From: a virus
Strand: one strand, 5' to 3'
IMG/VR virus record: IMGVR_UViG_3300022602_000004
Coordinates: 1 to 64,000 of that record
DNA: 64,000 nt
Shown here piece by piece: positions 6,550-56,516 of the stretch; positions within the stretch are counted from its first letter, which is position 1, and the number at the start of each line of letters is the position of its first letter. The notes beneath the pieces are model-generated. The model searched no databases. It was not told the DNA's origin and saw only the letters and a list, made by a program, of their open reading frames with translations. Made by a program: the position numbers and the translations under genes.

Positions 6550-7395
6550 ATGAGTACACAGTTAGTTAATCTTAGTGAACTTGGCGCGCTGGCAAATGTA
6601 GGTGGATTGGATGAAGATACACTTGCCGTTGCTGGTGGTAATCGCCAAAGCAATAAACGTATTTCAATCAAAGGCGGAGTATTCCGCAAGTATGCAGGTG
6701 GCAAAGAAATCGGTGCAATCGAAGACCGTTACATGAATGTCATCATAGTAAAAATGGCACACAAAGCCTCACGTATGTTTTATGACAAAGGCTACAAAGA
6801 AGGTGAGAAGGTAAGCCCAGCTTGCTGGTCATCTGATTCTGAAAAGCCTGATGCGGACGTAAAAACTCCAGCATCATCTAGTTGTTTATCTTGTCCCAAT
6901 AGCGCTAAAGGTTCAGGCGATAATGGTTTAGGCACAAAATGCAAACTGTCGTGGCGCACCGCAGTCGTTTTACCGAACGATCCAGCAGGTGATGTTATGC
7001 AGTTAGTCCTACCAGCTACCTCAGCGTTTGGTAAAGAAGATAATGGTCGTTGGCCTTTCCGTCCTTACATCCAGCACTTAGCGTCACACAATGTGTCAGC
7101 CGGCCGGGTTGTAACTAAGATGGCTTTTGATACAAAATCTCCTACACCAAAAGTATTGTTTGCTCCGGTTGGTGCAGTACCAGATGGTGATTTGGAAATC
7201 ATTGCCCGTCAAGCCAAAAGCCCAGCGGCAGAAGCAGCTATCAAGCTGAATGTATTCCAAACCGACTCTACTGGTGATGCAGAAGTTGCCCAGCCAGAGG
7301 AAGTTGCAGAGCCAGTCAAGCGGGAGTCAAAAGCATCCGCCGGTGAGAAGGCATCCGACGTGTCGGATATAGTTAAAAAATGGTCTAAGAAGTAA
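6550..7395 (+). CDS. probable single-stranded DNA-binding protein
   Basis: The 281-residue protein has a likely OB-fold core (about residues 35-215) and a disordered, Glu/Pro/Ala-rich tail (about 225-281). Four cysteines C92, C112, C115 and C131 could hold zinc, as in T4 gp32-type proteins. I recall proteins of this type in phages next to helicase and primase genes, called putative ssDNA-binding proteins; the assignment is by type and context, not by a diagnostic motif. AAGGAG lies upstream of the ATG, which points to strong translation as expected for such a protein. Confidence 0.6.
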   Translation: MSTQLVNLSELGALANVGGLDEDTLAVAGGNRQSNKRISIKGGVFRKYAGGKEIGAIEDRYMNVIIVKMAHKASRMFYDKGYKEGEKVSPACWSSDSEKPDADVKTPASSSCLSCPNSAKGSGDNGLGTKCKLSWRTAVVLPNDPAGDVMQLVLPATSAFGKEDNGRWPFRPYIQHLASHNVSAGRVVTKMAFDTKSPTPKVLFAPVGAVPDGDLEIIARQAKSPAAEAAIKLNVFQTDSTGDAEVAQPEEVAEPVKRESKASAGEKASDVSDIVKKWSKK

Positions 7396-7404
7396 GGAAA
7401 CAGA

Positions 7405-7719
7405 ATGCCACGGACGTATAGCAAAGAATTTATTAATGAGTTGGGAACACTGCGACCCTTTGATACCACTGGGGTTCAGCTAGCGAAGGCTTGTATAAGA
7501 GCAAACCTGCCGGCAAAGTATGTAGCCGTTGCGCTAGAAGTTACTCGTATGACGATTCATAGCTGGTTCCGTGGCAAACCTATCCGCGACAAAAACCGCA
7601 AATTAGTTGCTACATTTACAGACTTAGTTGAAAAGGATTTGGATGACGGAATATTGCCAGCCAAGACAACCGCTAAAGCTAAGGCTTATATTGAGGAAAT
7701 GATAGGCGAAAAGATTTAA
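7405..7719 (+). CDS. HTH DNA-binding protein
   Basis: The 104-residue protein carries a helix-turn-helix in residues about 26-56: A-K-A-C-I-R-A-N-L-P-A-K-Y-V-A, then L-E-V-T-R-M-T-I-H-S-W-F-R-G, the pattern of a recognition helix that ends with Trp-Phe-Arg. Basic residues (R-D-K-N-R-K) follow. It is a small regulator or replication accessory protein. AAGGAA precedes its ATG. It is the last gene before tandem hairpins that end the operon. Confidence 0.8.
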   Translation: MPRTYSKEFINELGTLRPFDTTGVQLAKACIRANLPAKYVAVALEVTRMTIHSWFRGKPIRDKNRKLVATFTDLVEKDLDDGILPAKTTAKAKAYIEEMIGEKI

Positions 7720-7784: not shown

Positions 7785-10691
7785 ATGTTAAAACAATTTT
7801 ACGAGAAAGCATTGCCATCGCAGGGTGTTTATTGTGTAAGTGGTATAGATCCGAATAACAACAAAATAACGAACCGCTTTGCAGAAACACTTGAAGATGT
7901 ATTTGAATTAGTTGAGAAGTTTAAAAAGAAGAAAGTAAACGTATATGTAGCGCCAGCATCATTTGAAGGTTTTAGTAGGAAAGCAGAGAGTTGTGTTTAT
8001 GTTAGGTCTTTTTTTATTGACATAGATACACACGGCAAAAATTCATACGATGACAAAGAGGGTACGCTAGAAGCCCTTCAACAATTACTTAGCGCAACGG
8101 AACTACCTAAACCTACCTGCATTGATTCGGGCGGCGGGCTTCATGCCTATTGGGTTATGGATAGGGATATACCCTATGAAGAATGGAAACCCTTAGCTGA
8201 AAAGTTTAAATCTTTATGCCTTAAACACATAGCTATAGATACATCAGTGACAGCAGATGGCGCTAGGTTGATGCGTTGTCCTGATACATTTAACTACAGA
8301 TACACGCCACCAATTATGGCTACTGTGTTGGATGAAGAGATAACAGTCTATGACTTTGATGAGTTTAAGAAGTTTATGGATGAGGTCGAAACTGACCAGC
8401 CAGCTCAAGATCCATTTGCGAATGTACGCAGGGGGTTAGATGAAGATACGCTAGCTATGAAACGGGTAGATAACTACCAGTGGGACTTTTATAAAATAGC
8501 CCAGCGTTCGCTGTCTGGTGACGGATGCGCCCAAGTTAAGTATTGGTTAGAAAACGCTGATACGCTTGGCTATGACGACTGGTTCTCCAGTATGAACATC
8601 GCTTATTTCTGTGCAGACGGAGATAAGATGATTCATGAGGTATCTAAAGATCACCCAGACTACACAGAGAAACAAGTAGAAGAAAAGAAACTTGAGTTTA
8701 TTAAACGCGGCAAACCACAGACTTGCGAGTACTTGGCTAGCCAAAACCCTGACAGATGCAAAGGATGCAAACATCGTGGAAAGATTCATACACCTATCGT
8801 TTTGGGCAAGACTATTAAGGAAGCAACCGAAGAAACTTCAATCGTTGCCGAAGCCCCAAGAGTCGAACCAATCCCAGAAGCAATCTCAGCCCTCTTTGAA
8901 AAAACCAATGAAGCGGAGCCAGTTCGGCAGACACAGAATACCCAAAAAATTCCAGTCTTCCCAGACTATTTAAAGCCATACATTCGTGGAGAAGTTGGTG
9001 GTATTTATTACACTCCGCCACCGAAGCAAGATAAGAAAGGTCAGGTACATTACGAAGACCCAGTAGAGATACTTGCCCACATTCTTTATCCGACGCGTAG
9101 ACTATTTAGTCCTCTAGATGGTGAGTGTATGACAATGAATTTGATTCTTCCTAACGACGGATTAAAAGAATTTTTATTACCTATGAAATCAGTCTATGGT
9201 TTAGAAGACCTTAAAAAGACTTTAGCATTTCATCAGGTAATCTATACCCCTAAATACATTAATAATATCCAAGAGTATCTTGTGAAGTGGAGTCAGTACA
9301 TGATTAATATTAGTAAAGCTCAGCAGATGCGTATGCAGTTTGGCTGGTCAATAGGGCGTACTAGTAAGGAATGGGAATCTCGTACTTTTGTTGCTGGTGA
9401 AAATGAAATCATATCTTCTACCCAATCAGTTGAAGCCCCTGTATCGCCTTATGTTAAGCAGTTGGCAAAATACTTTGAGCCTATAGGTACATTTGAGAAG
9501 TGGCAAGAAACTGCCCATGAGTTAAAACGACCTGGCTTTGAGTTGCATGCTTTAATTTGCCTATCGGGTTTCGGTTCTCCATTGTTAGAATTTATTGACC
9601 AGGGAGGGTTTACCCTAGGTTTATATGGTAGATCAGGTAATGGTAAGACTGGAGCCATGTATGCGGCTGTCAGCACGTTTGGTAGTCCTAAGCCTCTATG
9701 TGTATTTGATAGTACAGATAACGGCTTGGTGCAGCGTTTTGTAGCTTTGCATAGTATGGTCTTTGGTCTTGACGAGGTAACTAACAAGGACCCAGAAGTA
9801 TTATCGCAACTCATCCATAAAATATCTCAAGGCTCAGCCAAAATTAGGATGCAATCTTCTGCAAACGCAGAGCGTGAACACTCATTAAATTGCTCGCTAT
9901 TTGGTATTCTAACTACTAACGATTCTATTGAAGGTAAGATTGAGCGCTTTAGAAATAGTCCTGATGGTGAAAGAGCGCGCTACGCAGAGCTTTATATAGA
10001 GCAACCAGATGCCCTTAAAGGACCGGAAGGAGACGAGCTGGGTAGAAAGATATTTGACCCATTTAGATTTAACTATGGTCATGCAGGTCCTATGTTTATT
10101 AAAGAACTGTTTAAGTTAAGCACACCAGAAGTTATGGCAATGTTAGCTAAATGGGGTAAGCGTTATACAGACGATACTCAGGGTGATGCATCTTATCGTT
10201 ACTACAAAAACTTTATATCTTGTACGTTTGCTGCGGCTGAGATTGTAGTTGGCGCGGGTATTCTTGACTATGACATAGAACATATTTATAAGAAGACTAT
10301 TGATACTTTGAATTACATGAAGCAAAACATTTCTAAGATCAATGCCAACGACTTTACTGCGGTTCTTAATGACTTTATATATGAGAATATGGGTAACATA
10401 CTACGCCTTAAAGATGGTAAGGTAATTGATGAACCGCGCGGTAAGTTAGTTGCTAGGGTTGCTACGGATGAACCTACTCGCATATCTAAAGAAGCGCTTA
10501 AAGAGTATTTAAATAAACGCAAGATGTCTACCAGAGAGTTTGAGAAAGACTTAAAAGAACGTGGTGTTCTACTTAAAGTAGATAGAAAGCATTTGGAAAC
10601 TGGGTGGAAAGCAACAACTAACTCCCAAGCATCTTATGTATATTTAATTAAGAATGATTTCTTAGATGATAAGTCCGAACCAGATCATTGA
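7785..10691 (+). CDS. primase-polymerase fused to DUF927-like ATPase/helicase
   Basis: This 968-residue protein joins two parts. The first 180 residues have archaeo-eukaryotic primase motifs: a D79-x-D81 metal site (F-F-I-D-I-D), S-G-G-G-L-H120, and a distal D152 region. A cysteine cluster (C-E-Y-L-A-S-Q-N-P-D-R-C-K-G-C) lies near residue 320. The C-terminal half has a DUF927-like P-loop ATPase: Walker A G615-RSGNGKT622 and Walker B G-L-D663-E664, expected to form a ring helicase. It would unwind DNA and make primers. There is no ribosome site before ATG 7785; the ATG lies 13 nt after a terminator. A stop 26 nt inside the next gene shows coupling. Confidence 0.9.
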   Translation: MLKQFYEKALPSQGVYCVSGIDPNNNKITNRFAETLEDVFELVEKFKKKKVNVYVAPASFEGFSRKAESCVYVRSFFIDIDTHGKNSYDDKEGTLEALQQLLSATELPKPTCIDSGGGLHAYWVMDRDIPYEEWKPLAEKFKSLCLKHIAIDTSVTADGARLMRCPDTFNYRYTPPIMATVLDEEITVYDFDEFKKFMDEVETDQPAQDPFANVRRGLDEDTLAMKRVDNYQWDFYKIAQRSLSGDGCAQVKYWLENADTLGYDDWFSSMNIAYFCADGDKMIHEVSKDHPDYTEKQVEEKKLEFIKRGKPQTCEYLASQNPDRCKGCKHRGKIHTPIVLGKTIKEATEETSIVAEAPRVEPIPEAISALFEKTNEAEPVRQTQNTQKIPVFPDYLKPYIRGEVGGIYYTPPPKQDKKGQVHYEDPVEILAHILYPTRRLFSPLDGECMTMNLILPNDGLKEFLLPMKSVYGLEDLKKTLAFHQVIYTPKYINNIQEYLVKWSQYMINISKAQQMRMQFGWSIGRTSKEWESRTFVAGENEIISSTQSVEAPVSPYVKQLAKYFEPIGTFEKWQETAHELKRPGFELHALICLSGFGSPLLEFIDQGGFTLGLYGRSGNGKTGAMYAAVSTFGSPKPLCVFDSTDNGLVQRFVALHSMVFGLDEVTNKDPEVLSQLIHKISQGSAKIRMQSSANAEREHSLNCSLFGILTTNDSIEGKIERFRNSPDGERARYAELYIEQPDALKGPEGDELGRKIFDPFRFNYGHAGPMFIKELFKLSTPEVMAMLAKWGKRYTDDTQGDASYRYYKNFISCTFAAAEIVVGAGILDYDIEHIYKKTIDTLNYMKQNISKINANDFTAVLNDFIYENMGNILRLKDGKVIDEPRGKLVARVATDEPTRISKEALKEYLNKRKMSTREFEKDLKERGVLLKVDRKHLETGWKATTNSQASYVYLIKNDFLDDKSEPDH

Positions 10692-54976: not shown

Positions 54977-54997
54977 GAAACCAGTTACTTGTTGTCG
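54977..54997 (+). repeat. 21-bp direct repeat, copy 1
   Basis: GAAACCAGTTACTTGTTGTCG, identical to 55813-55833. Both copies follow the hairpin that ends an early module and are followed by GC-rich, G-TG-CG-rich DNA. Confidence 0.85.
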
Positions 54998-55047
54998 GGC
55001 GCGTCTATGCGAGTGCGTTATTTAGTGTGCCATTCTTGCGTGGAAAC

Positions 55048-55140: not shown

Positions 55141-55758
55141 ATGGCTAAAAACCAAAACCTAGCAGTAGATTTAATCGCCTCCCTCAAAGACGGAGCTTAC
55201 AAACAAGCCTCAGCTAATGACCGCATTGTATCGGTTGCGAAGTATGTAATCGAAAAGGTCAAGGGCTTTCCTGAGGCTTTGCCTGATGAGGCTAAGGCTG
55301 AGTTAGTCGAGGGTTATCGTCTACGCTTTAATGAGAATAACCCTGCTATTCAGTATGTCATTGTTAATGACCACTACTTGTTAGCTAGCGACTGCCCTGA
55401 TGTAAAAGAGGGGTTTGTTAATATCGGGGTAGATTATGCCTACTCATTCAGCCAACAGCAGTTTGGCAAGCTCAAGAATGAGAACCCCTACTTGTATGAC
55501 ATTATCAAGCCTTTGCGTGATAAGTGTTCTACCTATTGCAGTAATCGTATCAACGACCTAAAGCGTCAAGCTCGGGCTTTGCTCAAGACTGATACTAAGG
55601 GTAATCGTGGTGCAACTCTTGATTTTGGACAACGCTTAGTCAAGGTCTTTGATGACCTCGAGGCTAAGTGCAAGGTAGCCAAAGAAAGAGGTGATACAAC
55701 GGCTGATCTAGTCAAGTATCGCAAAGCAGTCGAGGCTTTTAACAAGGCTTGGGCTTAA
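55141..55758 (+). CDS. hypothetical early protein (205 aa)
   Basis: Helix-rich, soluble, charged protein. Features: L-I-A-S-L-K-D-G, the aromatic stretch V-D-Y-A-Y-S-F-S-Q-Q-Q-F, C-S-T-Y-C-S-N-R-I-N-D-L-K-R-Q-A-R-A-L-L-K, and a coiled end K-V-F-D-D-L-E-A-K. No recognised family. It is the sole gene of module 2 with a strong terminator, so an abundant early product such as a host take-over or DNA-binding protein is likely. Confidence 0.85.
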   Translation: MAKNQNLAVDLIASLKDGAYKQASANDRIVSVAKYVIEKVKGFPEALPDEAKAELVEGYRLRFNENNPAIQYVIVNDHYLLASDCPDVKEGFVNIGVDYAYSFSQQQFGKLKNENPYLYDIIKPLRDKCSTYCSNRINDLKRQARALLKTDTKGNRGATLDFGQRLVKVFDDLEAKCKVAKERGDTTADLVKYRKAVEAFNKAWA

Positions 55759-55767
55759 GTAGTATCG

Positions 55768-55799
55768 AGGGACAGGGCTTCGGCTCTGTCCCTTTTTTT
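55768..55799 (+). terminator. strong intrinsic terminator
   Basis: AGGGACAGGGC (55768-55778), UUCG loop, GCTCTGTCCCT (55783-55793), all paired with one G-U, followed by TTTTTTT. Very stable. Confidence 0.95.
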
Positions 55800-55812
55800 G
55801 TGCCTTGAAAAT

Positions 55813-55833
55813 GAAACCAGTTACTTGTTGTCG
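55813..55833 (+). repeat. 21-bp direct repeat, copy 2
   Basis: Identical to 54977-54997, 836 bp away; see that entry. It follows the module 2 terminator. Confidence 0.85.
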
Positions 55834-55898
55834 CGTGCGTGAGTGCGTGTGTTAAATATCTCATAGCCCATGTGCCAGCGCAAGGTCATTGATTAGTG

Positions 55899-55916
55899 TT
55901 CCACGGGATAGTGGAA
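55899..55916 (+). repeat. TTCCAY-N6-GTGGAA element, copy 1
   Basis: TTCCAC-GGGATA-GTGGAA, perfect 6-bp stem, 6-nt loop. The wider block TTAG(T/C)GTTCCACG and TAGTGGAATYTG is shared with copy 2. It lies at the left edge of the repeat-rich region. Confidence 0.85.
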
Positions 55917-55985
55917 TCTGCCCTGTATCATTTAGAATTCTAAGAACTGATGCGACAATATCAGCCAACGCTAAGTTATTACAAA

Positions 55986-56381
55986 AAATTCCAAGTTTAG
56001 AATCGGGGGTTCTGAGTTCCGCAGAAAAATTCCAAGTGGTTTGGAATTTAATTTGTTTTATAAATCATGGACTTACACAGGAAATTCCAAAATTCCAAGT
56101 TTTTTAGAAATAGGCTAGGGGGTAAAGAGTTATTTTAGAAAAGTTGTGTCAGCAAGAAGTCTTTTTTCCCGATGTATTTTAGTAAAGCAGAAAACACTCG
56201 CAAGGTATTGTTACCTCAAAAAAACTTGGAATTTTGGAATTTTTCTTATTCTTCTTCTTTTTTAATTTAATAAATAATATATATAACAAGGACTTATAGC
56301 ATTTTTTACCCCGAAAATTAAATTCCAAAACCATTTTTAAACTTGGAATTTTTCTTGGAATTTTTTACAAACTTGGAATTT
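55986..56381. other. candidate replication origin with 11 AAATTCCAAG repeats
   Basis: Eleven copies of AAATTCCAA(G) or its complement CTTGGAATTT lie at 55986, 56027, 56041 (reverse), 56082, 56090, 56225 (reverse), 56234 (reverse), 56320, 56342 (reverse), 56354 (reverse) and 56372 (reverse). The left group is mainly forward and the right mainly reverse, around AT-rich DNA (56243-56290, A/T almost only). This looks like iterons with an unwinding element. No gene of note crosses the region. An array for a transcription regulator is the alternative. Confidence 0.6.
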
Positions 56382-56420
56382 TTTTGGTCTACCCTCGCCT
56401 AAAAAAGTTATCCACTAAGA

Positions 56421-56449
56421 TTGTGTTAAAGGTAAAGTTATACTATAAT
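56421..56449 (+). promoter_or_regulatory. early promoter P3
   Basis: TTGTGT (56421-56426), 17-nt spacer, TATAAT (56444-56449). Spacer holds GTAAAGTT. Nearly the same block recurs as P4. It would drive the small gene operon from 56564. Confidence 0.75.
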
Positions 56450-56516
56450 TATAGTGTTGGTTGGCGAGAAAATAAGACGGCAACATAGTCCCCTCACCCA
56501 CCAGCATTACTTAGCG

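Follow-up and report, generated by a model that had tools for sequence, protein, structure and literature searches.

A conserved array of short facing sites beside an A/T-rich tract as a candidate replication origin in a widespread phage group

The viral record comprises 65,536 bases, of which the first 122 are repeated as the last 122, so the genome is a circle of 65,414 bp. It belongs to a widespread, mostly uncultured group of phages with genomes of about 60–65 kb. In the stretch of 64,000 nucleotides that was analysed (the window), a gene for a 205-aa protein is closed by a strong terminator-like hairpin, which may insulate the downstream iteron array from transcription arriving from upstream. 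Positions 55759–56563 contain no supportable gene; two ORFs of 72 and 51 aa in this region were rejected as genes since they lack gene conservation. Small + strand ORFs, resembling an early operon, start at 56564 to the right of the array, the last site of which stops about 180 bp short of the next ORF. No match was found in a DNA search against annotated phages or in Rfam and tRNA searches. The features of the locus are listed below, with > for forward and < for reverse sites.

55141–55758, + strand: gene of the 205-aa protein, directly 5' of the array
55767–55794, + strand: hairpin resembling an intrinsic terminator, closing the 205-aa gene
55899–55916: left bracketing palindrome TTCCAC-N6-GTGGAA, perfect, 6-bp arms
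55986–56381, both orientations: whole iteron array, 11 exact AAATTCCAA sites
55986, 56027, 56082, 56090 and 56320: forward (>) AAATTCCAA sites, exact matches
56041, 56226, 56234, 56343, 56355 and 56373: reverse (<) AAATTCCAA sites, exact matches
55986–56049: outer left sites (> 55986, > 56027, < 56041)
56082–56098, + strand: left tandem pair >>, 8-bp offset, present in dereplicated relatives
56099–56225: spacer between the facing pairs, 127 bp
56226–56242, − strand: right tandem pair <<, 8-bp offset
56240–56289: A/T-rich tract, candidate DNA unwinding element, with a pure A/T run of 29 bp at 56258–56286
56320–56381: right-hand site set (> 56320, then < 56343, 56355 and 56373)
56517–56534: right bracketing palindrome TTCCAC-N6-GTGGAA, perfect, 6-bp arms, with the next small ORF 47 bp further on

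All eleven exact copies of AAATTCCAA in the window fall within 55986–56381, with none outside, against a chance expectation of 1.37 per 64 kb and a maximum of five among 100 shuffles. Four of the five sites in the left group are forward and five of the six in the right group reverse. An earlier note on this DNA had described eleven copies in 396 bp of a gene-free stretch, mostly forward on the left and mostly reverse on the right, and these points were all borne out. It had also placed a nearly pure A/T tract between the two groups. The tract is real, but it lies inside the right group, beside the pair at 56226/56234, and the boundary between the groups is the 127-bp spacer. Sites do flank the tract on both sides, at 55986–56242 on the left and 56320–56381 on the right. 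The << pair and the >> pair together form an inverted repeat of 27 nt (96%). A search of all 65,414 bp for clusters of short repeats turned up just one more, CCGCCACC near 31.7 kb, which lies inside a gene; no further noncoding cluster was found.

Two familiar types of repeat array do not fit the locus. Iteron plasmid origins of the Rep_3/RepA type have regular direct repeats of about 20 bp at helical turns, and the sites here are 9 bp long, irregularly spaced and in both orientations. Stoperator-type repressor sites are spread along the genome in a single orientation relative to transcription, and here all 11 sites lie within 396 bp in both orientations.

The two palindromes reported to bracket the array, at 55899 and 56517, are both perfect and have no other perfect copies. 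The rest of the window holds eleven copies with one or two mismatches, the majority of them in the early region at 55–64 kb, and TTCCAC-N6-GTGGAA palindromes also bracket the arrays of six relatives (L135, G015, G016, L176, L325 and G043). With up to two mismatches allowed, the element was located at 55028, 55899, 56517, 58044, 58423, 58995, 59470, 60902, 62271, 63250 and 581, within and between genes of the early + strand region, with a similar spread in relative G001. This genome has 13 of them and G001 has 17, compared to 1–3 in the phages of the TGTTCTA class (see below) that were checked. The scattered copies may represent a second regulatory system, either a scattered operator or an RNA hairpin. 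Another element, GAAACCAGTTACTTGTTGTCG, occurs twice (54977–54997 and 55814–55834), each time soon after a hairpin, with related copies to the left of the arrays in G013 and G017; it is a candidate phage promoter or regulatory element.

Relatives were gathered via the terminase and the 205-aa protein. In about 37 dereplicated relatives the same 205-aa gene immediately precedes the array and the gene of a 304-aa protein (at 58093 in this phage) follows it; the site word there is related but different. Four classes of site word, with the common core TTCYA, were distinguished:

AATTCCA class: this phage, L135, L002, L043, L052, G013, G015 and G016
AGTTCYA class: G001 and G017
TGTTCCA class: L145, L168, G006, G021, G022, G040, G047, G051, G057 and G058
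TGTTCTA class: most other relatives

The plan is the same in every class: a >> tandem pair with 8-bp offset, a spacer, a << tandem pair with 8-bp offset, the A/T tract of about 50 bp, one > site and two or three < sites. Many relatives also have a < site some 41 bp ahead of the >> pair, and the spacer usually measures 105–130 bp. In well over a hundred relatives the facing layout beside an A/T-rich tract is kept while the site word varies. The question whether the array is kept in relatives, raised as a check in the earlier note, is thus answered positively: position, geometry and adjoining A/T tract are preserved across several motif classes.

The 50 bp to the right of the << pair are 83% A/T in 36 relatives, compared to a background of 54%, and the tract exceeds background in all 36, phages with about 50% GC included. 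It ranked first of five windows in 32 of the 36; of the four exceptions, G016 and G040 have it on the opposite side of the pairs because these stretches were fetched unturned. The inner distances in the first 37 arrays are mostly 112–116 and 123–127. In a wider set of 102, spacer lengths were periodic beyond a smoothed null, with a best fit at about 11–12 and not 10.5 bp. Given this offset and the presence of intermediate lengths, the clustering is no more than suggestive of a face-of-helix constraint.

Clusters of AATTACACA were considered as a further motif class and rejected, being located across the 205-aa gene from the array. They lie upstream of that gene (L166:4898–5241, L178, L184, L185, L186 and L196) and consist mostly of direct repeats spaced about 43–65 bp. 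The contig ends of G001 (L214 positions 1–258 and the end of L217) carry two noticeably different versions of the facing-pair module, which could reflect a duplication of the origin module or else a mixture of strains where the assembly breaks. Short tandem or regular repeats of 12, 14 and 44 bp were seen at L150:13485–13671, L157:16092–16278, L188:7091–7150 and L151:1696–1850.

The bare geometry was also used as a query, without protein information, on 2.9 million viral contigs, as TTCTA or TTCCA pairs facing each other across 106–136 bp. At least 186 stretches matched (67 from one scan and at least 119 from the other). Among the matches listed, 102 of 106 dereplicated ones had at least seven site cores nearby, that is a full array, and the better flank was 74–79% A/T compared to 53%. 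Most of the contigs carry genes for proteins of the group. Among 200 matches listed, all 92 with a homolog of the 205-aa protein have the array 0–1.6 kb past its stop, and in 79 of the 81 that carry the 304-aa gene it precedes that gene by no more than 5 kb. A similar pattern gave nine matches in 50 primase-bearing contigs and none in the reversed control. Searching by AAATTCCAA pairs alone was abandoned, as the matches were mostly chance.

The protein proposed as initiator is a primase-helicase encoded elsewhere in the genome:

7785–10691, + strand: 968-aa primase-helicase (DUF927), proposed initiator
10362–10688, + strand: C-terminal winged helix, residues 860–968, proposed site-recognition domain

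This protein scored 78 bits with PF06048 (DUF927), well above the Pfam cut-off of 22.6, and its profile matches SCCmec Cch (5dgk, E 2.9e-12) and SaPIbov1 Rep (8tch, E 7e-6); a match to NCBIfam Cch1 stayed below cut-off. A winged helix forms the end of a model of the last 189 residues (mean pLDDT 84). In structure comparison this model came closest to 8tch (Z 9.3), the SaPIbov1 initiation protein with helicase activity, and to 5dgk (Z 9.1). The overall rmsd is high, indicating that the two sub-domains are placed differently. The protein is thus a helicase of the Rep/Cch type with a C-terminal DNA-binding domain, and would be the cognate initiator of the array. Cch (DUF927) is related to SaPIbov1 Rep, and iterons are recognised by SaPI Rep via the C-terminal domain (PMC7581432); fusions of a DUF927 helicase with an archaeo-eukaryotic primase and a C-terminal winged helix have been predicted to recognise origins (PMC5862659).

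The array is probably the replication origin of the phage, working like that of the SaPI/PICI elements, as judged from the conserved array together with a helicase of the type whose known origins look alike; the earlier proposal of a candidate origin is in this respect supported. PICI origins always contain an AT-rich region with one set of iterons on either side (PMC6092414). SaPIbov1 and EcCICFT073 share with this phage the two sets of short iterons around the tract and a helicase of the same family that loads itself and carries its DNA-binding domain at the C-terminus. On the basis of these elements the locus can be described as a PICI/SaPI-Rep-like origin far from its rep gene. In SaPI/PICI the origin lies directly downstream of rep, whereas the array is about 17 kb from the primase-helicase gene (56 kb versus 7.8–10.7 kb on the 65.4-kb circle). 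Also unlike these elements, the phage lacks an integrase, measures about 65 kb and has its primase fused to the helicase, and the geometry of facing tandem pairs is fixed with the site word varying among relatives. SCCmec Cch is the best profile match of the primase-helicase (5dgk); the putative origin of Cch2 likewise has short iterons, of 5 nt, read by the C-terminal domain (PMC7581432), but that protein is of another helicase family and its three iterons are direct repeats beside its gene.

More distant parallels exist. The origin and crr of phage P4 are served by the alpha protein, a primase-helicase fusion with a C-terminal origin-binding winged helix, and carry iterons at an AT-rich site; as far as we know, iteron word and helicase type differ from those of this phage. 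P4 alpha was absent from the structure matches, which carries no weight for or against. In the origins of SV40 T-antigen and papillomavirus E1, opposed pairs of short sites lie beside an AT-rich tract and the helicase recognises its own origin, but the proteins are unrelated, their DNA-binding domains are N-terminal and the spacing is much shorter than here.

Copies of the primase-helicase would bind the short sites via the C-terminal winged helix, and the facing tandem pairs would position two oppositely oriented helicase assemblies. The adjoining A/T tract would then melt, one helicase ring would be loaded per strand, and the fused primase would lay the first primers for the family-A DNA polymerase.

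The primase-helicase outpaces its replication neighbours in evolutionary rate, being 45–48% identical to that of TGTTCTA phages, compared to roughly 61–74% for the polymerase, the nuclease, the SNF2 helicase and the protein encoded at 6550. Sixty-nine alignment columns distinguish the A-type classes from all others, and roughly one in three of these columns lies within the last 11% of the protein. At positions 950–951, Ala-Tyr is invariant in the TGTTCTA class, and TGTTCCA phages never have Ala or Tyr there. In a distance test against site class, with neighbouring genes held constant, segment 860–968 gave the top partial correlation (0.55, or 0.63 under another control). Segment 345–540 ranked second and covaried almost as well, the N-terminal primase came last of the primase segments, and the neighbouring protein at 6550–7395 covaried somewhat, which indicates that shared ancestry was incompletely removed. 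The link between winged helix and site class is correlative, within related genomes. On these sequence comparisons the primase-helicase is likely the binder of the array sites. The HTH protein at 7405–7719, which the earlier note had named for footprinting, showed little covariation (r about 0, or 0.21 under another control).

The locus could also be an origin at which a different phage protein, such as that of the 304-aa or the 205-aa gene, recognises the sites and then recruits the primase-helicase. The 205-aa gene always adjoins the array, and the 304-aa protein correlates weakly with the motif (r 0.22, p 0.04). The 205-aa protein is conserved and fast evolving, and was modelled confidently (pLDDT 90), but no known fold and no DNA-binding fold was found in the model and the correlation with the motif was absent (r 0.09, p 0.23), so it was rejected as site binder. 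As the winged helix of the primase correlates far better and its kind is known to read iterons, a separate binder is considered unlikely, though not negligible.

As a second alternative, the array could be an operator or enhancer cluster for a phage or host regulator of the rightward early operon from 56564. Its place between a terminated gene and that operon would suit such a role, inverted pairs would permit looping, and the spacer lengths cluster periodically. However, the sites stop well before the next ORF, a sigma-70-type scan gave no + strand promoter above threshold, exact sites are absent elsewhere, the A/T tract is constant and the neighbouring 205-aa gene does not covary with the motif. 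In nine genomes no integrase or serine recombinase was found, which makes a lysogeny operator or switch less expected. An operator as such is thus quite improbable; a role in early transcription, alone or combined with replication, is possible. Skew was not used as evidence: the raw AT-skew minimum of the whole genome, at 56647, coincides with the gene-strand change, and strand-corrected third-position skew in five genomes revealed no replichore switch at the array, so that the skew check proposed earlier lent no independent support. A partition or packaging (pac) site is very hard to believe, despite a terminase gene about 3 kb away and the resemblance of inverted short sites to centromere clusters, as no ParA/ParB-like gene was recognised among the proteins searched, the motif class follows a replication protein and an A/T tract is unusual for pac.

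Within the origin reading a more specific proposal can be put forward tentatively, as conceivable rather than probable: a rigid facing-pair origin, shared by the whole phage group and built for loading two opposed helicases, of which the recognition word has switched repeatedly together with the winged helix of the primase-helicase, creating mutually exclusive replication specificities readable from sequence. If this proposal is true, the origins of these phages would fall into ‘incompatibility groups’ that can be read straight from the sequence. For phages of this kind, no published account of an origin of this design was found in the part of the literature covered. Few environmental phages have a known origin; here a widespread group receives a sequence-recognisable candidate, for which both the initiator and its recognition domain are specifically predicted. 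This would connect the replication of lytic-type phages with that of phage satellites and SCCmec. The initiator-site pairs, in which at least four site words occur, form a natural series that makes an origin-recognition code testable, as well as the question whether satellites hijack phage origins.

Some observations were made on cultured phages and on the neighbourhood. The array was not found in the part searched of the sequences of the capsid-related cultured phages DSL-LC04 and HTVC023P, the primase of which differs from that of this phage. In Rhizobium phage RHph_TM27A (MN988461, 42248–45331) a gene annotated as ‘putative integrase’ is related to that of the primase-helicase, and the nearby gene order (polymerase, nuclease, SNF2 helicase) matches this phage; a clear array was not found there. 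The cultured Pseudomonas phage Rollin (OR577172) is one of few annotated phages in which the primase shows a distant relationship over its full length (22% identity). Its own palindromic repeat cluster (L351:1–580; AAAAGGTAG/CTACCTTTT, AAAAGGTAGYAA..TTRCTACCTTTT) counts nine half-sites in 490 bp and is followed by an A/T tract at about 545–580. As side support for the origin reading this cluster is a lead. To the right of the array, an AAA ATPase gene beside that of a metallopeptidase-like/VWA protein (DUF2201), at 59091–60167 and 60397–61689, is kept in all relatives compared.
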